A stretch of 45,523 nt of DNA, from contig CAIJZY010000037.1 of NCBI GenBank assembly GCA_903825285.1, positions 1 to 45,523 on the forward strand. Direction: 5' to 3'. Numbering within the stretch: position 1 is the first letter of the stretch; each line of letters begins with the position of its first letter. Positions 11,822 to 29,528 of the stretch are shown here, one piece after another. Under the pieces are notes generated by a model. That model was given only the letters and a program-made list of their open reading frames with translations. It did not search any database and was not told the origin of the DNA. Made by a program: the position numbers and the translations under genes. The DNA comes from an uncultured Opitutia bacterium. GTDB lineage: Bacteria > Verrucomicrobiota > Verrucomicrobiia > Opitutales > Opitutaceae.

Positions 11822-13939
11822 ATGCGCCTCCCGGACTCAGTCTCCTCTGCCGCGACCCAGTTTCGCCGCGCCCCGCTCTGGTGGCAGTGCGCCCTCGTGG
11901 CCACGGCCGGCTTTGCGGTTTGGCTGCTGACCGCGCCGACCAAGACGTCGGGCATGCGGCTCTTCACCATCGCCTTCCTCGCGGTCCTCAACTTCGTCGG
12001 CGCCGCGGCCTTCGCGCAGGCGGCGCGGCGCCCGGCGCTGTCCCGCCGCGTGCGGCAGGCGCTGGGCTGCTTCGCCGCGGGCCTCACCATGGTGGGGCTC
12101 GGTGCGACCTACCTCGGGCTCGAGGTGGCGCTCGTGACCAACTACCAGAGCACGTTCAGCGTGGCGGACGGGCTGTTCCTGCTCAGCTACCCGCTGATGC
12201 TGGCCGGACTCACTCGGCTGCCGCGGGGCGAGCGGCCGGCCGCGGGCCGGTGGCGGATCGCGCTCGACGGCCTGGCCTGCGTGGTCGGCGTCGGCGTGCC
12301 GCTGTGGCTTGGGGCGGTCGGCCCGGCCTGGCATGAGAACACCGGGATGGACGCCGTCCTCGTGCTGCTCTGGCCCTGCGTGGCGTTTGTCGGCCTGATG
12401 GCGCTCAACGGCGCGCTGCTCACGCGGGCGCCCGTGCCGACCCGCGGGGCGCTCTGGTGGCTGCTCGGCAGCCTGGGGATCTCCTGGCTGGCGGACCTGA
12501 TCTTCTCGCTCGACGCCTCCGCCATGGTGATCCGCAACAGCGCGATCCACTGGACCAACCTCACCAACGCGGTCGCGCTGGGCTGCGGGCTGGTGGCGGC
12601 ACGGCGGTTCGCCGCCGACCCGCTGCCGGCGTCGCCGCGCCTGCGGCCGGCGGCGTTCTCCCCGGTGCCGATGGTGACCATGATGATCGTGGCGGCGTGG
12701 CTGGTCGTGCTGGGCACGGCGGCCGCGGCCGACCCGCAGATGCTCCGCCGCACGCTGCCCGGGCTGGTCATGCTCCTGCTCGTGCTGCTCGTGCGGGAGC
12801 TGCTCGTGATGGCGGACACCGTGCACTGGATGGCGGCGGAGTTTGAGCACGAGGGCGAGGCCCGGCTCGTGGCCATGGTGCGGCAGTCGTCGGACGTGAT
12901 GATGATCGTGGACCCGCAGAACCAGGTGCGCTTCGCGAGCCCGTCGCTCACTGCCGTGCTGGGCCGGCCGGTGGAGGCGGTGGTCGGCCGCTCGCTGCTG
13001 GAGCTCGTGCACGCGGAGGACGTGGCCGCCGGGGCGCGATTCCTGCAGCGGCTGGCGGAGCAGCCGGGCGCCGTGGCGCACCTGCGCTGGCGGCTGCGGC
13101 ACGCGGACGGCACCACGCGGCAGTTCGAGACGGCCGGGAGCAACGCGCTGCTGGAGCCGGCGGTGTCCGGGCTGGTGCTGAACTCCCGCGACGTCACCGA
13201 CCACCTGCAGCTGGAGGAGGAGCTGCGCGAGTCGCAGAAGCTGGAGGCGATCAGCCGACTCGTCGGCGGCATCGCGCACAATTTCAACAATGCGCTCGCC
13301 TCGACGCTGCTGGGCCTCGGCCTGATGCGGAACGAGAAGCAGCTCCCGCCGGAAGTGGCGCGGGAGTTCGCGGCCCTGGAGCAGGGCGCGAAGCGCACGG
13401 CCGAGCTGATCCAGCAGCTGCAGTCGTTCGGCCAGGTGCAGTTTCTCCGGCGGCAGCGGCTGGACCTGGGCGAGGTGCTCACCCGCTTGCATCCCGTGCT
13501 TGCGCGCATGCTCGGCGACCGCATCCGGCTCGAACTCGCCGGCACCGGCGAGCCGGCCTGGATCCGGGCGGACGGCGCGCTGATGAACCAGGTGGTCCTG
13601 AACCTGGTCGCCAACGCCCGCGACGCGATGCCGGAGGGCGGTCAGCTCGTCCTCGCGATCACGTCCGGGCCGGCGGATCCGCCGGCCGGCGGGGCGGTCG
13701 CGCGCGGGCGCGAGGTGTGCCTGAGCTGCCGTGACACGGGCCGCGGGATGGACGAGTCCGTGCGCCAGCACCTGTTCGAGCCATTTTTCACGACGAAGGG
13801 CACCGGCCAGGGCGTGGGCCTCGGCCTCGCGGTCGTGCACGGCATCGTGCGCCAGCACGCCGGCCGGCTGAGCGTCGAGAGCGAAGTCGGCCGCGGCAGT
13901 ACCTTCCGGGTCTACCTCCCCGAGGCGACCGACGCTTAA
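11822..13939 (+). CDS. membrane-bound PAS sensor histidine kinase
   Basis: The 705-residue protein begins with about eight to ten hydrophobic segments (residues 20-330), a membrane sensor region without a recognisable ligand domain. A PAS domain follows (about 345-460, starting DVMMIVDPQNQVRFASPS). The dimerisation helix has the phosphoacceptor His486 in LVGGIAHNFNN. The ATPase domain (about 580-705) shows the N box NLVANARDAM, the G1 box DTGRGM, EPFFTTKGTGQGVGLGL and the final GSTFRVYLPE. The asparagine after His486 (AHNFNN) places it in the NtrB-like HisKA group. No response regulator is adjacent, so the partner is unknown. ATG 11822 follows a TTG; either start changes only one residue. Confidence 0.86.
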   Translation: MRLPDSVSSAATQFRRAPLWWQCALVATAGFAVWLLTAPTKTSGMRLFTIAFLAVLNFVGAAAFAQAARRPALSRRVRQALGCFAAGLTMVGLGATYLGLEVALVTNYQSTFSVADGLFLLSYPLMLAGLTRLPRGERPAAGRWRIALDGLACVVGVGVPLWLGAVGPAWHENTGMDAVLVLLWPCVAFVGLMALNGALLTRAPVPTRGALWWLLGSLGISWLADLIFSLDASAMVIRNSAIHWTNLTNAVALGCGLVAARRFAADPLPASPRLRPAAFSPVPMVTMMIVAAWLVVLGTAAAADPQMLRRTLPGLVMLLLVLLVRELLVMADTVHWMAAEFEHEGEARLVAMVRQSSDVMMIVDPQNQVRFASPSLTAVLGRPVEAVVGRSLLELVHAEDVAAGARFLQRLAEQPGAVAHLRWRLRHADGTTRQFETAGSNALLEPAVSGLVLNSRDVTDHLQLEEELRESQKLEAISRLVGGIAHNFNNALASTLLGLGLMRNEKQLPPEVAREFAALEQGAKRTAELIQQLQSFGQVQFLRRQRLDLGEVLTRLHPVLARMLGDRIRLELAGTGEPAWIRADGALMNQVVLNLVANARDAMPEGGQLVLAITSGPADPPAGGAVARGREVCLSCRDTGRGMDESVRQHLFEPFFTTKGTGQGVGLGLAVVHGIVRQHAGRLSVESEVGRGSTFRVYLPEATDA

Positions 13940-13954
13940 TCCCAATTTCCCACT

Positions 13955-14818
13955 TCAAAATTCCACGTCGCGGCAGCGGGCCTCGAGCTGGCGGGCGATG
14001 TGGTCGATCTGGGCGGGGGTGAGGCTGGCCGGGCGGTTGCGCACCAGGCCGGGGATGGCGCTGGGGGCGACGACGTGGACCTCGGCACCGGCGGCGGTCG
14101 TGGTGACATTCCAGCCGGGGAAGGTGAGCACGGGCACGGGCGTGAGCGGCTCGCCGGCGGCGTCGCGCAGCCACGTGGCGAGCCACGCGGCGCGGTGCAT
14201 GGCCTGGTCGAGCCCGTGCGTGTCCTCGCCCCACGGGAACACCAGCTGCGTGCCGTCGAACTCGATCGCGTCGGGCGCGCGCCCGGGCAGCGCGCGGCCC
14301 GCGCGGCGGGTCTTGGTCTCGATCGCGAACACGCCGGTCGGGGCCACGATGACGTGGTCGAGGTTGAAGCTGCCGGCGGGCACGTCGTGGAAGATCCGCG
14401 CGCCCTCCGCGGCCAGCGGCGCGAGGGCCTCGGCCACGATCTTCTCGCCGAGGAGGCCGAGGTGACAGTCCCGGCGCAGCGTGAACTTCTGCAGCATCCA
14501 CCGGCCGGCGAAGAACAGGGTGACGAGGAACAGCGCAAACGCGCCAAACATAGCGGGGTCGCGCTCGTCGGCCGGCAGGTTGAGCGCGAGCATCAGGCCG
14601 CCGACAAAGACGCCCATCGGGAGGAACGCCGCGCCGAAGGCGTGCAGCAGGAGGGCGTCGTCGAGCCGCTGGAGGCGCCAGCGGAGCGACTCGCCCGGGC
14701 CGCGCAGGAGGGTGGGGGCGACGGGCGGACGCTCACGGCTGCGGTTGACGCGCCAGACCCAGAGCACGCCGAGGCACAGGGCATACGCCGCGAGGTAAAG
14801 CGCGAGGGCCAGGATCAT
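13955..14818 (-). CDS. NERD-domain membrane protein
   Basis: The 287-residue protein has an N-terminal hydrophobic helix (2-22), two more around 65-105, and then a NERD domain (about 115-230). The domain reads LGLLGEKIVAEALAPL...FHDVPAGSFNLDHVIVAPTGVFAIETKTRR, with the D-H and E-x-K residues expected of a nuclease-related fold. NERD proteins are thought to act on DNA or in processing, but most are uncharacterised. It is convergent with the histidine kinase gene, with only 15 bp between stop codons. The active-site-like Asp/Glu/Lys positions are kept, so catalytic competence is possible but unproven. Confidence 0.8.
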   Translation of the reverse strand: MILALALYLAAYALCLGVLWVWRVNRSRERPPVAPTLLRGPGESLRWRLQRLDDALLLHAFGAAFLPMGVFVGGLMLALNLPADERDPAMFGAFALFLVTLFFAGRWMLQKFTLRRDCHLGLLGEKIVAEALAPLAAEGARIFHDVPAGSFNLDHVIVAPTGVFAIETKTRRAGRALPGRAPDAIEFDGTQLVFPWGEDTHGLDQAMHRAAWLATWLRDAAGEPLTPVPVLTFPGWNVTTTAAGAEVHVVAPSAIPGLVRNRPASLTPAQIDHIARQLEARCRDVEF

Positions 14819-21221: not shown

Positions 21222-21302
21222 CCACCACGAAACATACGAAACACACGAAAGCAGATCCGGCATCAGGTTCCTTTTTCGTGTGTTTCGTCTGTTTCGTGGT
21301 GG
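21222..21302. repeat. family A copy 6, short-loop hairpin
   Basis: Arms of about 29 bp (CCACCACGAAACATACGAAA and complement) enclose only about 23 bp and lack the inner pair. It lies in the gene-free 21159-21520 stretch between the M61 and sigma factor genes. Confidence 0.9.
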
Positions 21303-21486: not shown

Positions 21487-21510
21487 GCCTGCCCTGAGCA
21501 TGCCGAACGG
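21487..21510. repeat. single family E unit before the sigma factor start
   Basis: One copy of the 24-bp unit found in tandem at 14947-15035 (here CCTGAGCATGCCGAACGG). It contains ATG 21500, in frame with the sigma factor. That ATG therefore looks like part of the repeat and not the native start. Confidence 0.8.
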
Positions 21511-21520
21511 GCCGTGCATC

Positions 21521-22069
21521 ATGGCGGAGACGGCGGGCGCGACCACCCCGGGCACCGGCGCGGACAACCGCTGGTTCCAGGAGCAGGTGCAGCCTCACGA
21601 GTCCCTGCTGCGGCGGTGGCTCCATGCGCGGTTTCCGTCGCTGGCGGACATGGATGACGTCATCCAGGACGCCTACGCGCGGCTGTTCCGGGCGCACCAG
21701 CTGGGCAAGGTCAAGAGCGCCAAGAACTACCTCTTCGCCACCGCCCGCAACGCCGCCGTGGACCGCGTTCGTCACAACGGTGTGATTCCGATGGAATCAC
21801 TAGAGGATAATGCCGAGGTGGACGTCTTGCAGTCAGAGACCGGCGTCGTCGAAGCCGTCAGCCGGGACCAGGAACTCCAAATCTTGCGCGATGCCATGAC
21901 CTCCCTGCCCACGCGATGCCGCCAGGTGTTCACGCTGCGCAAGCTCTACGGGCTGCCCCATGCCGAGATCGCCCGGCAGCTGGGGATCTCGCCCAAGACG
22001 GTGGACGTGCAGATCAACAAGGCCATGCGGCTCTGCGCCGCGTACCTGCGGGCGAGGGGGCTCCCATGA
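21521..22069 (+). CDS. ECF-type RNA polymerase sigma factor (FecI-like)
   Basis: The 182-residue protein has a sigma region 2 (about 25-88, with DMDDVIQDAYARLFR and AKNYLFATARNAAVDRVRH) and a sigma region 4 (about 120-178, with LPTRCRQVFTLRKLYGLPHAEIARQLGISPKTVDVQINKA). This is the FecI-like group used in surface signalling. ATG 21521 is chosen because the upstream in-frame ATG lies in a repeat. Its TGA stop overlaps the FecR ATG (ATGA), so the two proteins are translationally coupled. Together they would switch on a TonB-dependent receptor gene, which follows in damaged form. Confidence 0.88.
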   Translation: MAETAGATTPGTGADNRWFQEQVQPHESLLRRWLHARFPSLADMDDVIQDAYARLFRAHQLGKVKSAKNYLFATARNAAVDRVRHNGVIPMESLEDNAEVDVLQSETGVVEAVSRDQELQILRDAMTSLPTRCRQVFTLRKLYGLPHAEIARQLGISPKTVDVQINKAMRLCAAYLRARGLP

Positions 22070-23160
22070 AGACCGACTCGCCCCGTCCCCTCTACGACGC
22101 CCCGGAACCGGTCATGCGGGAGGCGGGCGCGTGGCTCGCGAAGCAGGACCGCGGCCTCACCCCCGAGGAGGTCCGCGCCTTCGAGCACTGGCGCCGCGCG
22201 CACCCGAGTCACCAGGCCGCCGTCGCCCAGTTGGAGCAGACCCTCGCCGCCTTCGACCGCATCGCGGAACTGGCGCCGGACTTTTCGCCCCGGCCTGATC
22301 CCGACGCCTTCGCGCCCGCCCGCCCGACGCGGCTCAACTGGCTCTGGCCCGCCGCCGCCGGCCTCGCCGCGGCCGCCGTGCTGGCGGTCATCTTTTTCCA
22401 TCCGACCGGTACGCCCGCCGCCGTGCACCAGCACTACGCCACCGCGCCCGGCGGCTACCAGCGCGTGACGCTCCCCGACGGCTCGGTCGTGGACCTCAAC
22501 GCCGGCACGGTGCTGGACGTTGACCTCGCGCCCGCCGTGCGCCGTGTGGAGTTGTCCCAGGGCGAGGCCCACTTCCAGGTCGCGCACAATCCCGAGCGCC
22601 CGTTCATCGTCACCGCGCAGGGCATCTCCGTCCGCGCCGTCGGCACCGCCTTCGACGTCCGCCTCGGCCCGCAGGATGTGGCGGTGCTCGTCACGGAGGG
22701 GCGCGTCAAAGTCGCGAGGCGCCCGGACGCGGGGGAAGGAACCAGGGAGAGTGGGGCAGGGATCGCACCGTCCACCGTCCACGGTCCCCCATCCACCGGC
22801 GATAGCGCTTCGCTTTCGCTCGGTGCTGGCGAAAGCATCGTCGTCCCCCTCGCCGTTGCCGCCCCCACGCCTCAAGTGGCGGTCGCCACCCCCGCCGACA
22901 TTGCCCAGCGCCTGGCCTGGCAGCCGCACGTGCTGGAGCTGCGGCAGACGCCGTTGTCAGAGATCGTGGCGGAGCTGAACGAGCACATCGGCCCGGACCA
23001 GCCCCGGATCGTGATCGCGGACCCGTCGCTCGCGTCGCTGCGCATCGGTGGCAACTTCCGCGCCGACCAAGCCGACGCCTTCGTCCGCCTCCTCGAGACC
23101 AGCTTCGACGTCACCGCCGAGCGCTCGGGCGACACGATCACCCTCCGCCGCGCGCGGTAG
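22066..23160 (+). CDS. FecR-family sigma regulator
   Basis: This 364-residue single-span membrane protein carries an N-terminal cytoplasmic anti-sigma segment (about 15-60, REAGAWLAKQDRGL...FEHWRRAHPSHQAA). One transmembrane helix follows (about 92-112), then a periplasmic FecR domain (about 125-217: GGYQRVTLPDGSVVDLNAGT, GEAHFQVAHNPERPFIVTA). A C-terminal STN-like domain (about 285-360) resembles those of TonB-receptor signalling. It should hold the sigma factor inactive until the receptor reports substrate. Residues 219-248 (Gly/Ser/Pro-rich, encoded by 22720-22810) interrupt the domain boundary and include the self-complementary ACCGTCCACCGTCCACGGT, unlike the rest. This may be a repeat captured into the reading frame. 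Confidence 0.87.
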   Translation: MKTDSPRPLYDAPEPVMREAGAWLAKQDRGLTPEEVRAFEHWRRAHPSHQAAVAQLEQTLAAFDRIAELAPDFSPRPDPDAFAPARPTRLNWLWPAAAGLAAAAVLAVIFFHPTGTPAAVHQHYATAPGGYQRVTLPDGSVVDLNAGTVLDVDLAPAVRRVELSQGEAHFQVAHNPERPFIVTAQGISVRAVGTAFDVRLGPQDVAVLVTEGRVKVARRPDAGEGTRESGAGIAPSTVHGPPSTGDSASLSLGAGESIVVPLAVAAPTPQVAVATPADIAQRLAWQPHVLELRQTPLSEIVAELNEHIGPDQPRIVIADPSLASLRIGGNFRADQADAFVRLLETSFDVTAERSGDTITLRRAR

Positions 23161-23191
23161 CTCGCGCTCTCCCTCCACTCCTCACATAGCC

Positions 23192-23377
23192 GTCATCCTG
23201 AGCGAAGGTGAAGGATCGCTGTTACTATCTGTGCTCGGCCCGCAATGAGTGTACCGACACTCTGGCCACACCGCTTGAGTGTCAGGATTCCCATGTTGGC
23301 TCTGGGGCATTGGAAACAGCGATCCTTCCTCCTGCGCGAAGGCTTCGGTGGACACGTCGCAGTCACTCAGGATGACG
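23192..23377. repeat. family B element, copy 3
   Basis: Arms GTCATCCTGAGCGAAGGTGA and complement enclose the conserved GACACTC...GAGTGTC stem. The right arm is lengthened by GAAGGCTTCGGTGGACACGT, the complement-orientation counterpart of the copy 2 insertion. Downstream, up to 23500, come a family D block (23415-23447) and CCATCAACTATCTACCATCA. The 23161-23560 stretch has no gene. Confidence 0.9.
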
Positions 23378-23503
23378 ACCTTTGGTGGTTTCCATTAAGG
23401 CACCACAGCCGAGCCCCATCGAACTCCGAACTGCGAACTCCGATCTCCGGCGCCCGCCTCCGAGGCGGCGCTTCCATCAACTATCTACCATCAACTAGCT
23501 ACC

Positions 23504-23551
23504 ACGGACCAAGGGCTGAAAACCCATAAGGGTTTTCAGCCCTTGGTCCGT
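23504..23551 (+). promoter_or_regulatory. perfect 22-bp hairpin just before the receptor start
   Basis: A 22-base stem (ACGGACCAAGGGCTGAAAAC... ) closed by a four-base ATAA loop ends ten bases before the ATG at 23561. In RNA it would lie over or next to the ribosome-binding region and could act as an attenuator or translational block, or it may be one more mobile palindrome. Confidence 0.6.
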
Positions 23552-23560
23552 CTCGCGGGT

Positions 23561-24202
23561 ATGACCACCCCAGTCTCACCCCTCCTCCGGAGGCTTCTGG
23601 CCTCCCTTGTTGTCGTCTTGTGTCTTGGCGTTGGCAGCGTGCTGCGTGCTGACGAACCCGCGAAGAGCTTTGATATCCCGGCCGGCGATGCGGCGGCGGC
23701 GCTGAAGAAGTTCTCGGAGCAGTCCGGCAACCAGGTGATCTTCCCGGAAGACGCGGTGGCGGGCGCGGTCACGTCGGAGCTGAAGGGCGACTACGCCCCG
23801 GCCGAGGCGATGACGCACCTCCTGGCCGGCAGCGGACTGAAGTCCCACCGCGACGCCAAGTCCGGATCCTTTGCGGTGACGCGCCAGGCGAACCTCCAAC
23901 CCGACCTCGACCCAAACGTCAGTCGGGCGATCGCGCAGGACAGCGTTCGCCCGGCCAAAAATCCAAGGACTGAGGAAAACGCGAACGGCGAGAAGGTCAT
24001 CAAGTTAGATACTCTATTACTTCTGCGTCGCCACCGTTCGTTAACAATCTTGCCTCTCGATCCGCGCAGTTGCTTCCAACCTTCACTTCATACGAGGTCG
24101 CCGCAGGCGCAACGAAGTATACGACCGGCTTGCGATATCGTCCTGTTGATTGGTTTGCATTCCGCGCAAGCTATGGGACGGGGTTCTTGCCGCCGAGTAT
24201 AA
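23561..24202 (+). pseudogene. 5' fragment of an STN-type TonB-dependent receptor
   Basis: The first about 150 codons are the normal beginning of a signalling TonB-dependent receptor. They comprise a signal peptide (to about residue 30, ending VGSVLRADE), an STN domain (about 35-105: SFDIPAGDAAAALKKFSEQS, VIFPEDAVAGAVTSELKGDY), and a linker ending NANGEKVIKLDT. At this point the TonB box and plug domain should follow. Instead the frame runs into unrelated codons (LLLLRRHRSLTILPL) and stops at 24200. The homologous reading resumes in another frame (see 24010-25131). The upstream sigma/FecR pair is the expected regulator. The plug domain is completely missing. Confidence 0.85.
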
Positions 24203-25131
24203 ATCAGATTCCGCCTCAATCCCCCTTCCAATCCATTGCGCTATTGGTGGACCCAAAGCGCGGAAATGTTTCTGGTTTCACAGACGCTATCACGCAGATA
24301 AACGGTGGAAACCCAAACCTGCGACCTGAACAATCGAAGAGCACATCGGCAGGCATTGTCATTGAACCGCCAGCGATTCCTGGTCTCCGGATTTCAGCAG
24401 ATTACACGCAAATCGAAAAACGAGACGAGATCATAACGCCATCAACTGACGTGCTTCTGGCTCTGGAGGACATCGTACCGGGCCGTGTCACACGCGCCCC
24501 ACTAACGCCTGCAGACGCAGCTTTGGGGTATACCGGCGGAGCGATTACGGCGCTCGATTTTTCTTTGATCAACATCGCTTCAAGTAAGGTGGAAGCCTTG
24601 GATCTAGCTTTGGATTATAATCGCAAGCTCGGTAACGCCGATGTTCGATTCTATGCTCTCGCCACCCACGAGTGGGTATTTTGGCGGCAGGCAACGAGTG
24701 GACAGCCAAAGATCAGTTATGCCGGCTATCAGAATGGTGCGCTCAAGTGGCAGGGAAACGCAGGCGTGAATGTTGATGTCGGTCACTTCACTCTCGGATG
24801 GAACGTCCAGTATTACAATTCATATCTGGTATATAGCGCGGGAAGCACCGCTTCCGCTATTGCGACCGCAGTGTTGAATCAGGGTTCCGACAAGATCCCT
24901 TCCCAGAGTTACCATGATTTGTTTATCCGCTATCGTCTTGTAGGTTTCAAGCGTGCCTGGGCGCGGCCGCTGAGCAACATGGAGATCACGCTTAATGTGC
25001 AGAACGTATTTGATACGAGTCCACCGATCGTCGTGCCACTCGGAGGCATCTCGGTTCGGCTGGGTGGATATAGCTACTACGGCGATCCCCGTTTGAGCAG
25101 GCTCCAGCTAACGCTAAAGAAGCGATTCTAA
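24010..25131 (+). pseudogene. 3' fragment of a TonB-dependent receptor (beta-barrel end)
   Basis: From about 24010 a second frame carries the last about 370 residues of a receptor barrel: TKYTTGLRYRPVDWFAFRAS, YGTGFLPPSINQI, the NGGNPNLRPEQS motif, long amphipathic strands and a C-terminal LSRLQLTLKKRF ending in the phenylalanine used for outer-membrane insertion. It has no start codon of its own in a plausible place and no plug. G+C content falls sharply here (about 47% in one hand-counted line). It is therefore either the remainder of the upstream gene after a large internal deletion, or the end of a different receptor joined to it. It ends 17 bp before the peptidase gene. Confidence 0.85.
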
Positions 25132-25148
25132 CATCAACAAAACCCAAT

Positions 25149-27485
25149 ATGCTTATTCGTCTCACCGTCGTTCTGCTCGCCACAGCGTCACTTGGACTTA
25201 GCAATGCTGCTGAGGGACAAGCGTCATTACCCGAAAAAAAACACATGTGGCAACCAGCGGACTCAGTGGCGGTGCGCACCTACACTGATGCAGTATTTTC
25301 GCCAAACAGGGAACGCTATCTTTATACATACTCATATGGAGAACTAGCAAGTGACTCTGTTATAGACGTGTTAGAGGTGTTTAGCTCCGATGATACAAAG
25401 GCTGCTTTGTTGGGCGGAACGAAGCCTCAACCTTTACATAAGTTAGTACGCCGAACCTACGATCATGCTGGAAATGCTTTTTTTAATCCGCGGTGGTCAG
25501 AAGACGGTATTAGCATAACATATGGAGGGGCAGACGAACAAAACCGGCGACAGCTTTACAGCCTAAATGTTGTCAATGGGGTGTCGACTGCACTCACAGA
25601 GTGGCCGACCGGTACAGCTTTTGCTCTGCAAAATCTCGGGAAGACGATTGTTGCACGTGACGTTCCATCTCCCCGGGAAGCTGTGTCATTTCAGTATCCA
25701 ATGCATTTGCTGGGTGCTGAAGATATACAGGAAGTATTCTACAGAGGGTTGCGTTATAAGCCGCACTTGACCTATATCTCCTACGACGGGGCTGCGCCAT
25801 GGGTAATGGCATCCAGGAATTTTGATCTCGTTGCCGCTTCCGATATTAGCGGCAAGACACTAGTCGGCGTGGCGGGTAGGCCTACGGATCTCGTTCCTGA
25901 ATTCTGGTATAACTACGATGGTGCAATGCGCCGTGGAATATTGTCCCCGCCCTTTCCGACGGAATTCAAGTTAGTTGATGCTGAAAAGGGGACTGAACGA
26001 TCGATACTTGGATCGCCGACAGGTGATGCTACTAAAATTGGCAGTTATCAGCTATTGCATATTCGCCCCAAGGCTCTTTGGGCTGCTAATGGACGCAACG
26101 TGGTGCTGGTAAATACGACATTGCCGATAGACGATAGTCACCCTGAACGCGCCCACATTCCTTTTATTGTGGGCTACGACATCAAAACCGGTGAGTATCA
26201 GATCCTCGAACCACTTCAGGACGTGGATGGTGTAACCGGAAAGAACCGGCAAGTGATAGGAGTGGACTGGCTGAAGCCGGGGCTCGAGCTACTCGTCCGC
26301 CATCGACAGGGGACAGAGGAGGCAGCGGTGGTATACCGATTGCAGCAGGGGAAGTGGATTGGTGAACCGATCAAGTATCAAGCGCCATCGCCAATTGCAA
26401 ATCGCGGAGGGGAGCTTGCAGGCAGCGAGCTACGGGTAGTGATGGAACAGGACGCGAATACCCCGCCGCTAATGGTCGCATATTGCCGAGATCGTCGTGC
26501 TGCCCTTGACGAACCAGACCCGGCGCTGACAAACGTTAGCTTCTCTCGTGAGGAGCCGTTGCGCTTCCTACAAGACGGCCAAACACGCGTGGGCGGCTTA
26601 ATTCTGCCTCCTCATACGGATGGTCGCGCTATCCCGCTAGTGATCCAAGTTTATGACTACAAGCCAGACACATTCCATCCTGACGGCGCCGCTTTAAACG
26701 GTTCGCAGTCTTTGATCAGTGAAGGCATTGCGGTACTGATTGTAGACATGGAAGCCCCTGGTGGAAAGAAAAAGGGGCACGAAGTAGAGGACTTGGCCAA
26801 CTTTGTTGGGCAGATCGATGCAGCCGTCGGGACCTTGGCAGCAAAAGGAATCGTTAACCCTGAGCAAGTGGGGCTAGTAGGATTTTCGCGGGGCGGCTAC
26901 TATACATCGTATGCAATTAGCCATCCAGGAAAAATAGCCCTAGCGGCAGCAATGAACGATGACTCGTTTCCGGGTACTTATAGTTATATATAAACCAATA
27001 TGGCGGGGAGTGGCTCTGATGGTTCCCACAATTACGATGGTAGTTTCTGGGAGAAGAAGGAGACTTGGCTACAGCATGAACCATCGTTCAATGTAGATCG
27101 TGTTAGAACGCCCACTATGTTCGCGATTCATGAGCAATCGTCGGTACTATATGTAACGGATATGGTGGGCGCCTTCGTATTTAATAAAAAACCATACGAA
27201 TACTTGGTATTTCCTAAAGGTACTCATAACCTTGAAATGCCGCGCGAGCGTGTTGCCAGCCAGCAAGCCACGATCGATTGGATGAAATTCTGGCTTAAAG
27301 GAATTTCGCCGTCTGATCCAAAGCTTGCTTCCCGCTGGGCCATTCTCCGTAAGGAGCAGGACGAAGTCCTCAAGACCCCGCCGCCACCCAAGGGGAAGTG
27401 GGTGTTTCAAGCGGATGCGGAACAACCAGCCTGGACACCACCGGAGAACGCGAAACCGGGCCAAACTAAGGGGTCAGGCCGCTAG
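25149..27485 (+). pseudogene. S9-family (prolyl oligopeptidase-like) peptidase with an in-frame TAA
   Basis: The frame starts at ATG 25149 with a signal peptide (MLIRLTVVLLATASLGLSNA), so the product would be periplasmic. A long beta-propeller-like region (about 40-470) precedes an alpha/beta-hydrolase domain with the nucleophile motif GFSRGG (Ser580). Codon 615 (26991-26993) is TAA. The same frame continues with ATG 27000 and contains candidate acid Glu662 (MFAIHE) and His693 (FPKGTHNLEMPRER). The 614-residue product lacks the histidine and would be inactive. The last eight codons lie in the terminal repeat of the transposase element that follows. One hand-counted line is about 37% G+C, far below neighbours. 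Order and residue spacing recall lasso-peptide isopeptidases. Confidence 0.83.
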
Positions 27486-27663
27486 TTCTTAAATTTCTCG
27501 GGGAAGGCGCCGCGGACGGAGCTGGCGACCTGTACGAAGAGACAGGCGTCCGCGGATTGCAGGCCAAACTAAGGGGTCAGGCCGCTAGTTCTTAAATTTC
27601 TCGGGGAAGGCGCCGCGGACGGAGCTGGCGACCTGTACGAAGAGACAGGCGTCCGCGGATTGC
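27459..27663. repeat. tandem 102-bp duplication, period 103
   Basis: Bases 27459-27560 and 27562-27663 appear identical. Each copy contains one left terminal sequence of the transposase element (TAAGGGGTCAGGCCGCTAGT at 27467 and 27570). The left end of the element is therefore present twice in direct orientation; the right end is present once. Confidence 0.95.
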
Positions 27664-28630
27664 GGGTTGCTGGGGCGCGCGGTTGGCTGGGAGGATGCCC
27701 CGGCCGCTGCGTCTCGATTACCCTGGCGCGATCCATCACGTCTACAATCGCGGGAACTACCGGCAGGATGTGTTCGCGATGGCGGGGGCGGCGCGGGCGT
27801 TCGAGACGTGCGTGTTCGAGGCGTGCGAGCGCTGCGACTGGCGGCTGCACGCGTACACGACGATGACCAACCACTACCACCTCGCACTGGAGACGCCGCG
27901 GGGCAACCTGGTCGCGGGGATGCAGTGGCTGCAGAGCACGTATGCCTCGCGGTTCAACCGCTTCCGGAAGGAACGCGGGCACCTGTTCCAGGGACGGTAC
28001 GGCGCGGTGCTCGTGGAACCCGGGGAGGCGTTGCTGCGCGTGGTGAACTACATCCACCTGAACCCGGTGAAGGCGAAGCTCGTGACGGTGGACCAGCTGG
28101 CGCAGTACCCATGGAGCAGTTTCCGGCGGTTCGTGGGCGGGGCGCGTCCGGGGTTTCTGGTGTGCGAGGACTGGCTGGCGGAACTCGAGCTGGTGGACAA
28201 CGCGGTGGGCTGGGCGAGTTACCGAAGCTACCTGACGTTTCTGTCCGCCAACGATGACGAGCAAAGGCGACAGGCGTTTGACCGCATGAGCAAGGGCTGG
28301 GCGGTCGGCAGCCCCGAGTGGCGCCAGGAGGTCGCCCTGGTGCAGTCCGCGCGCGTCGAGCAACTGCAGGGCGAGGCGACGCGAGAGTTGAAGGAGGTGC
28401 GGTGGGCGCGCGTGCTCAAGGAACTGTTGAAGCAGGCGGGCCGGACCCGGGCTGACGTCGCGCGCGACGCCTATGGCGCGGAGTGGAAGGTGAGGATCGC
28501 GGCCGAGCTGCGCCGCACGACCACGGCGACCAACGCCTGGATTGCCCGTGAACTCGTGATGGGCTGCCGCAGCTCGGTGAGCGTGTACCTGAGCCAGAGG
28601 AAATTTAAGAACTAGCGGCCTGACCCCTTA
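27467..28630 (+). mobile_element. RAYT-type transposase element with 30-bp inverted ends
   Basis: Thirty-base inverted repeats (TAAGGGGTCAGGCCGCTAGT... at 27467-27496, again at 27570-27599, and complement at 28601-28630) bracket one Y1 transposase gene. The element is GC-rich inside AT-richer DNA. It supplies the final codons and TAG stop of the upstream peptidase frame. No target duplication was seen. Whether the element itself moved, or the ends are REP-like substrates of the encoded enzyme, cannot be decided from one copy. Confidence 0.85.
27695..28615 (+). CDS. REP-associated tyrosine transposase (Y1/HUH, TnpA-REP-like)
   Basis: The 306-residue protein starts MPRPLRLDYPGAIHHVYNRG, the typical RAYT N-terminus. 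It has the HUH metal-binding motif HYH (His60, His62, in MTNHYHLALE) and a candidate nucleophile Tyr83 in LQSTYASRFN. HLFQGRYGAVLVEPGEALL and VNYIHLNPVKAKLV follow, both highly characteristic of the group. RAYTs nick and join single-stranded DNA at palindromic repeats. The C-terminal region (about 220-306) is the extended helical type. ATG 27695 has a GGGAGG ribosome site directly before it and is preferred to TTG 27683. Its final codons (RKFKN) are encoded in the right terminal repeat. The gene looks intact. Confidence 0.92.
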   Translation: MPRPLRLDYPGAIHHVYNRGNYRQDVFAMAGAARAFETCVFEACERCDWRLHAYTTMTNHYHLALETPRGNLVAGMQWLQSTYASRFNRFRKERGHLFQGRYGAVLVEPGEALLRVVNYIHLNPVKAKLVTVDQLAQYPWSSFRRFVGGARPGFLVCEDWLAELELVDNAVGWASYRSYLTFLSANDDEQRRQAFDRMSKGWAVGSPEWRQEVALVQSARVEQLQGEATRELKEVRWARVLKELLKQAGRTRADVARDAYGAEWKVRIAAELRRTTTATNAWIARELVMGCRSSVSVYLSQRKFKN

Positions 28631-28652
28631 GGATTGGGTGATCGGGAGCCTT

Positions 28653-29528
28653 CTATAGACTCACGCGCAGGCTCGCTGCATCATAAACGGTCTTTTGAAG
28701 GTGGTTCACTACAACCAATATCGCCTCACCAATACGATCTCGCGCTATTGAAGGATGCTCACTGCCGAATGTCGCATGTCCCGTTGCTTGGGAGCAGCCC
28801 TTCCAGACCTCAGCAAGGAGCTTAGCATCCGGTGATTTTAACGGGATGTAGGCACCTCCAGGGAGGTCCATAATGTCAACATCATGAGGGAACCTTTCGC
28901 GTCCCTTGCGGCCTCTGCGGCGTAACGATTCTATTGGGAGTCCGTCCGAATCGCTATTCACGCCCACAAAATCAATGAGCCATCGAGTTGCCGCATGTCG
29001 GCCTTCCCACGCCGACATATCCCGACAAAACTGATGCTTCTGTTCTCGCTCGCGGCCATCTGCGATTTGCTGAGCCAATAAGCCCTCCAATACCTTTGTT
29101 TGGGCGAGACTGGCTCGTAGACGGTGAGGCAAATCTTGAGTGAGCCACTGGTTGCGCACCTTGGGGTCAGAGAGCTTTCCATTAACGTCGCTGATAGAGG
29201 CGCCTATTCTTGGCATATTTCGACTTCGGTAAATTACCAACGAAGCACATTCAATCGTCACAGAGATGCTGAAAAGAAATAGAGCAATTGCCGTCGCGAG
29301 AAGTGGCCAGTGCAATTGATCTGGGGCATAATACGCTGAGATCTGGAAGCTGATGTAAAAGTAGAGCGATGCGCCCAGGCTAAGTATGCACAGCAATGCT
29401 GTGGTCAGGCGGTAGCGCCACTTAACCGTTGGCACGCCAACGATGGCAACGACACCAACTGCCACACAGAGCGCCAACGGGCACTTCGATGCCAGCCAGC
29501 TGATACACTCAACTATGCCCATCTGCAT
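28653..29528 (-). CDS. membrane protein of unknown function, low G+C
   Basis: The 291-residue protein has three hydrophobic segments in its first 100 residues (about 16-32, 42-62, 73-98). A soluble, charged and partly helical domain follows (SKVRNQWLTQDL-like region to the end). It contains no motif I can assign: DMSAWEGRHAATRWLIDFVG and HDVDIMDLPGGAYIPLK are the most distinctive parts. Base composition is closer to the AT-richer peptidase and receptor DNA than to the flanking M48 gene, suggesting joint acquisition. Its stop lies three bases from a TAG that would end the peptidase frame if the transposase element were removed, so the two genes would be tightly convergent. Confidence 0.6.
   Translation of the reverse strand: MQMGIVECISWLASKCPLALCVAVGVVAIVGVPTVKWRYRLTTALLCILSLGASLYFYISFQISAYYAPDQLHWPLLATAIALFLFSISVTIECASLVIYRSRNMPRIGASISDVNGKLSDPKVRNQWLTQDLPHRLRASLAQTKVLEGLLAQQIADGREREQKHQFCRDMSAWEGRHAATRWLIDFVGVNSDSDGLPIESLRRRGRKGRERFPHDVDIMDLPGGAYIPLKSPDAKLLAEVWKGCSQATGHATFGSEHPSIARDRIGEAILVVVNHLQKTVYDAASLRVSL

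Follow-up and report, generated by a model that had tools for sequence, protein, structure and literature searches.

The stretch of DNA analysed here (‘the window’; 45,523 nucleotides, contig CAIJZY010000037.1 of GenBank assembly GCA_903825285.1, our C37) comes from an uncultured Opitutia bacterium of the Opitutaceae (phylum Verrucomicrobiota), whose draft genome comprises 3.74 Mb in 62 contigs and is 96% complete. On its forward strand lie, in order, an extracytoplasmic function (ECF) sigma factor of the FecI-like type (21500-22069, with Sigma70_r2 and r4_2 matches and candidate ATG codons at 21500 and 21521), a FecR anti-sigma regulator (22066-23160, its best local match being a FecR protein from contig G007:C22 of the same family, at 37.6% identity), a TonB-dependent receptor in two fragments and an S9 peptidase in two pieces. 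The first receptor fragment (23543 to about 24005, ATG at 23561) holds a signal sequence and part of an STN domain, and its frame continues as nonsense up to 24202; the second (about 24006 to 25131) lies in another frame and encodes the second half of the beta-barrel. The S9 frame (25149-27485) begins 17 bp further downstream, its sole interruption being a TAA at 26991-26993 (codon 615), and contains Ser580, Asp671 (in a helix) and His693. A preliminary description of the window had read the order of sigma factor, FecR, TonB receptor and S9 peptidase as that of a module for the uptake and cleavage of lasso peptides, and the order itself is confirmed by domain matches. The ECF sigma factor and FecR genes adjoin a receptor of the STN type, as in FecI/FecR-regulated TonB uptake, broken as that receptor is; its STN fragment scores 23.1 bits, below the Pfam cut-off of 28.4, and the STN domain of an intact relative (L070) scores above it.

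The identity of the peptidase was approached through profile and sequence searches. The NCBIfam model for the Atxe2 lasso isopeptidase family, NF033523, is the top match both for the two halves of the S9 protein (57 and 48 bits) and for the protein read through its stop codon (114.5 bits, against a family cut-off of 400), and this is the outcome of the profile search that the preliminary description had proposed for the repaired protein. Among PDB sequences, AtxE2 is the sole match of the C-terminal piece (E 5.7e-7, with values up to 1 considered); matches of the N-terminal piece are all weak (E 0.005 at best) and comprise FAP, hydrolases, AtxE2 and the protein of entries 5jrk/5jrl. A search of 72,556 plasmids returned 28 matching records, 10 of which carry an Atxe2-family annotation; the best of the 28 is the Caulobacter sp. 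FWC26 lasso isopeptidase (E 2e-17). Among 69 pattern matches in viral contigs, no relative was found. The 400-bit cut-off was abandoned as a means of finding relatives, being passed in none of 387 genomes of the phylum (with up to three candidates scored per genome).

Phylogenetic trees, for which we selected the strongest matches together with a sample of other S9 peptidases, place the window protein with the lasso isopeptidases. In a tree of 45 catalytic domains it groups with two proteins of G007, the S9 of an Acidobacteriota locus (L038) and a protein of Asticcacaulis excentricus M6 (support 99/96), and this group is sister to nine plasmid-borne lasso isopeptidases with a joint support of 100/100. 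In a second tree of 52 rows the isopeptidase side comprises 33 rows (100/98), and the window lies within a second clade of 19 rows (99/97), nearest to G007:C23 and G603 (98/99). Its S9 thus groups with members of the NF033523 family to the exclusion of other S9 peptidases, as a sister clade outside the canonical rows. In approximately unbiased (AU) tests, placement of the window with the 19 other S9 peptidases gave p 0.048, and placement with the canonical rows alone gave p 0.038. Other proteins of the window’s family fall on both sides of the 52-row tree: those of G000, G007 (two), G603 and G609 lie on the isopeptidase side, and those of G003 and G252, with one further protein of G007, lie outside it; the placement of the G003 protein L075 is tentative, and in the AU-test analysis it lies on the isopeptidase side with 82/88. 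The resemblance to lasso isopeptidases noted in the preliminary description is therefore upheld by both trees against the sampled other S9 peptidases, and assignment of the window S9 to the isopeptidase group is supported.

The catalytic residues only partly follow the same pattern. The positions first reported for Ser580, Glu662 and His693 are correct with the stop itself numbered as codon 615, and Ser580 and His693 occupy invariant columns of a 14-row alignment, as the triad of the NF033523 family demands. The proposal that Glu662 is the catalytic acid of the AtxE2 type had to be dropped, because this residue lies two columns before the acid column and is not common to the nearest relatives. 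We take that column to be Glu610 of AtxE2, on the basis of the numbering given in the preliminary description and of an alignment of the C-terminal piece with AtxE2. Each of the 10 canonical rows (counting that of G609) has Glu in this column, and none of the 18 clade rows with data has an acidic residue there. About nine residues beyond, a helix column holds Glu or Asp in all 18 of these clade rows, in 6 of 10 canonical rows, in 4 of 4 intermediate rows and in 5 of 19 other S9 peptidases; the separate C-terminal piece of the G603 protein has a Glu there, judged by eye. The contrast between the clade and intermediate rows (22 of 22) and the other S9 peptidases (5 of 19) gives a Fisher p of 3e-7, a value for a contrast drawn after the alignment had been seen and calculated as if the rows were unrelated. 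In seven Acidobacteriota rows an inserted loop contains an Asp, so that a loop acid is possible there, and scattered acids occur near the acid column in the window, L149, L150 and L151. A fold prediction from a two-row alignment of the L038 and window proteins reached a mean predicted local distance difference test score (pLDDT) of 40 and was not used. Two further plasmid S9 proteins, in full lasso loci of Sphingopyxis indica and Blastomonas (L112 and L113) and annotated merely as prolyl oligopeptidases, likewise have no acid at the AtxE2 column.

Outside the window’s own family, members of the second clade are found beside lasso biosynthesis genes. Eleven of its 19 rows stand in lasso loci, ten from Acidobacteriota and one from an Asticcacaulis plasmid, so that the claim of a module outside Proteobacteria holds to the extent that the clade includes S9 proteins of lasso loci from another phylum. 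The Acidobacteriota loci L038, L147-L149, L151 and L154-L158 share with the window the S9 clade, the position of the S9 gene behind an outer-membrane receptor, the non-acidic AtxE2 column and the helix acid; they differ in having B and C genes and, for L038, whose receptor alone was compared with Pfam, in an Oar-like protein with a CarboxypepD_reg domain, in contrast to the STN-type receptor of the window. In L038, on a contig of the Pyrinomonadaceae, the S9 gene begins 33 bp downstream of the receptor, and convergent to it are a cyclase-like gene (NF033535 as best match, 372 of 525 bits, with Asn_synthase and GATase domains) and a gene for a PqqD and Transglut_core3 protein (58 bits to the B2 model, above the cut-off of 33). 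Preceding these two genes, four small open reading frames (ORFs) on the reverse strand of the same locus (13379-14586), each with a YxxP- or YE-type start, an LGxA motif and an acidic D(D/E)F(D/E)E end, look to us like a candidate set of lasso precursors. Among 396 Acidobacteriota genomes, a profile of the clade matched at least 45 at E 1e-30, a lower bound because two candidates were scored per genome. From these the 15 strongest further loci were examined together with L038, and 10 of the 16 have B and C model matches on the opposite strand; those without them are L150, L152, L153 (on a 10-kb contig), L159, L160 and L161. B2 lies above its cut-off in 12 of the 17 genomes searched, two of which (G857 and G677) have B2 and the S9 gene on separate contigs. 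A prolyl-oligopeptidase-like gene (by our reading, with a start of DPYRWLEDR or similar) adjoins lasso B in several Acidobacteriota loci (L149, 3970-5991; L157, 4455-6485; L158, 13080-15113).

The Asticcacaulis excentricus M6 protein (L085, on pASEM-1) belongs to the same clade as the window and has an adjoining FecA-type receptor; unlike the window, it sits in a full lasso locus (C, B2 and a small ORF) and on a long branch of the tree. All nine canonical plasmid rows are likewise in lasso loci (seven by annotation, L079 and L084 by our own models), and eight of the nine have the four genes in the same order. The AtxE2-type loci of alphaproteobacteria, exemplified by plasmids of Caulobacter sp. 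FWC26 and Novosphingobium sp. PP1Y, thus share with the window the sigma factor, FecR, receptor and S9 genes on one strand, the grouping of the S9 proteins at 100/98 and the aligned Ser and His. The window differs from them in its absence of lasso A, B and C neighbours, its score under the NF033523 cut-off, its acid column without Glu and its broken state.

Within the Opitutaceae, matches to the clade profile at E 1e-20 came from 13 of 252 genomes, the matches of seven of these genomes not being placed in the tree. (In the search of 387 genomes of the phylum, with two candidates scored per genome, the profile reached E 1e-30 in one, the window’s own; G007 and G603 do not appear among the rows listed.) Four loci in three genomes of the family, the window included, pair a sigma factor, FecR and an STN-type receptor with an S9 protein of the clade: G007 has two with all four genes in order, and G603 has the same arrangement with its S9 gene split by an insertion. 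In none of these three genomes does a lasso B2 match exceed the cut-off; in the window’s genome none was found at E 0.001, a genome-wide result that covers B2 and extends to neither the precursor nor the cyclase. The remark in the preliminary description that the window has no lasso biosynthesis genes is thereby extended, for B2, to the whole genome, and the intact orthologues that it suggested looking for do exist in the family (G007, twice), although none with lasso genes was found there. B2 above the cut-off occurs in 14 of the 252 family genomes, and G000, G007, G603 and G609 are not among them; none of the 12 genomes of the genus included in this search has B2. Around 15 B2 regions from the family, some of them on short contigs, no sigma factor, FecR, receptor or S9 model match lies nearby. 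In the family genomes examined, lasso B2 genes and modules of sigma factor, FecR, receptor and S9 are separate. One further protein of the family, the S9 of G609:C426 (L116, 7528-9714, reverse strand), scores 399.9 bits, 0.1 bit below the NF033523 cut-off, and has the AtxE2-type Glu; its neighbour, where the contig ends, is part of a receptor gene, and the genome has no lasso B2 match.

The window copy itself is broken, in keeping with the decay surmised in the preliminary description: the receptor is in two out-of-frame pieces and the S9 gene has an in-frame TAA. The receptor fragments align to residues 43-171 and 752-1058 of an intact relative (L069), so that some 540-580 residues, among them the plug and the first half of the barrel, are absent. 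The sequence as assembled could yield neither a complete receptor nor an S9 protein that reaches its acid and His regions, so the copy is probably dead. The 3' end of the S9 gene runs into repeat DNA, namely a REP-type transposase element (27459-28631, forward strand) with a 103-nt tandem duplication (27459-27664), perfect 32-nt terminal inverted repeats (27466-27497 and 28600-28631) and a REP-associated transposase (27683-28615, forward strand; NF047646 at 57 bits against a cut-off of 80). An inverted repeat of two perfect 22-nt arms around a 4-nt loop (23504-23551) lies immediately upstream of the receptor start, and a 29-nt inverted repeat (97%) of the GAAACACACGAAA type occupies 21222-21302, between an M61 peptidase gene and the sigma factor gene. 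In G603 (L115, G603:C42, 9061-14160) the insertion in the S9 gene contains, by our reading, an IS21-like gene pair, and it falls near the position of the window stop, the matches ending at about window residue 607 and resuming at about 629; two of the four loci in the family (window and G603) are thus decayed copies. The G+C content of third codon positions (GC3) falls along the module, from 0.90 in FecR to 0.81 and 0.55 in the N- and C-terminal parts of the receptor and 0.50 in the S9 gene, amid three flanking genes at 0.94-0.97 and a transposase at 0.89. Four relatives (L069, L070, L115 and L075) show a weaker drop in the same direction, from sigma factor or FecR to S9. This composition fits a horizontal arrival of at least the receptor and S9 genes, whether or not an exchange within the receptor also took place. 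An ORF of 291 amino acids on the reverse strand beside the transposase (28653-29528), for which a Pfam search at E 0.01 gave no match, also has a GC3 of 0.55 and is a candidate second foreign piece.

Our preferred interpretation, to which we assign a probability of roughly 55%, is that the locus is the wreck of an inducible module that imported and cleaved peptides of the lasso type. Several observations weigh against it. The read-through S9 protein falls far short of the NF033523 cut-off, its residue at the AtxE2 acid column is a Ser, the AU rejection of a place among the other S9 peptidases is barely under 0.05, and 8 of the 19 clade rows (those of the window, of G603, of the two G007 loci and of L150, L152, L159 and L161) lack a nearby match to the lasso B or C models. 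Moreover, cassettes of sigma factor, FecR and receptor are common in the window’s family, and their order proves little. At E 1e-25 the barrel encoded in the window finds receptors in 58 of 240 genomes of the family, and 20 regions around its best receptor relatives with 26 receptor model matches include a single S9 match (L229 of G003, 52.5 bits); the closest receptor kin (46-48% identity), some of them at contig ends, have no adjoining S9 model match. Like the window, these cassettes carry their three genes in one run (with receptors at most 48% identical to its C-terminal part); unlike the window with its isopeptidase-group S9, most of those examined have other partners or none seen, in some cases because the contig ends; the downstream genes are, by our reading, thioredoxin- or TPR-like, M16-like or ABC-like. 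G003 has two loci with the full four-gene order, in which the S9 protein is either distant (L075) or a weak model match (L229), and one contig of another genome (L221, G614:C210) bears three successive cassettes of sigma factor, FecR and receptor. The use of gene order as evidence for lasso peptides, as in the preliminary description, was accordingly given up; with cassettes so common and the nearest receptors unpartnered, it is the S9 protein by itself that carries the lasso reading. On these grounds the locus might be an ordinary uptake cassette, one FecI-FecR-STN paralogue among many, whose S9 enzyme shares descent, though not substrate, with the isopeptidases and acts on ordinary peptides, or on cargo borne by peptides, once these have been imported. 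The varied partners of the receptor family, the G003 loci and the low profile score and missing acid of the S9 protein would all suit this explanation, and we regard it as a real but rather unlikely one, given that most of the nearest relatives of the S9 protein beyond the family belong to lasso loci and that both trees join it to the lasso isopeptidases.

The module might also be the remnant of a complete lasso locus of this lineage that has lost its precursor, B and C genes, instead of one acquired or kept for foreign peptides. Canonical loci do combine the same four genes with convergent C, B2 and precursor genes, and lasso B2 is present in the family; such a loss is nevertheless improbable, as B2 was found neither in the 12 genus genomes searched nor in G603 or G007, with its two intact loci (an absence that counts for less in G007, which is 83% complete), and the B2 regions of the family stand apart from all four kinds of gene. 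Both lesions are known from a single contig in a draft assembly, and the step in composition at the receptor junction is abrupt, as might be expected had misassembly created the junction or the stop in a module that is intact in the cell. That would have had to produce two independent lesions in adjacent genes, in a family where intact relatives show the same direction of compositional change and the G603 S9 gene is also broken, by an insertion; we consider it very improbable.

In the import-and-cleave module that we favour, binding of a ligand to the TonB receptor would be signalled by way of the STN domain to the FecI/FecR pair, which would then activate the genes for both receptor and peptidase. 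A peptide of the lasso type, closed by an isopeptide bond, would enter the periplasm through the receptor, and there the S9 enzyme, predicted from its N-terminus to be exported, would hydrolyse that bond. Import, STN/FecR sensing and cleavage after import are proposed because of the families to which the proteins belong. Since no lasso B2 gene was found in the genome, the ligand would be foreign, and might serve as food, as carried cargo or as a toxin to be destroyed. A siderophore-like shuttle with release of cargo has been put forward as one role that lasso peptides of the isopeptidase type may have for their producers (PMC11006600, citing Chekan 2016). Two other papers describe isopeptidases as co-located with lasso clusters chiefly in alphaproteobacteria (PMC13352647), and a near-constant cluster layout with a TonB receptor and a sigma/anti-sigma pair, the isopeptidase having a Ser-His-Glu/Asp triad (PMC9266682). 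The titles and abstract openings retrieved from the open-licence literature contain no recognised report of such modules apart from lasso genes or in the window’s phylum.

Taken as a whole, the arrangement is real and the preliminary description is borne out in part: this is an uptake module of the isopeptidase group outside Proteobacteria, apart from any lasso B2 gene and broken in this assembly, and its interest lies in the intact relatives. The second S9 clade reveals lasso-locus peptidases in Acidobacteriota that lie under the NCBIfam isopeptidase cut-off, and it poses a catalytic puzzle. Tentatively, and at clearly less than even odds, a broader pattern can be proposed, in which inducible receptor-isopeptidase modules are maintained by bacteria that produce no lasso peptides of their own and serve to pirate or disarm those of their neighbours (Acidobacteriota and alphaproteobacteria). 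Their enzymes would form a second class of isopeptidase, in which the acid of the triad has shifted out of the loop behind the last strand and into the helix that comes next. Receptor-isopeptidase loci in genomes with no lasso B2 match offer a natural test, as lasso peptides of foreign origin would be expected to elicit a response from them and to be processed.

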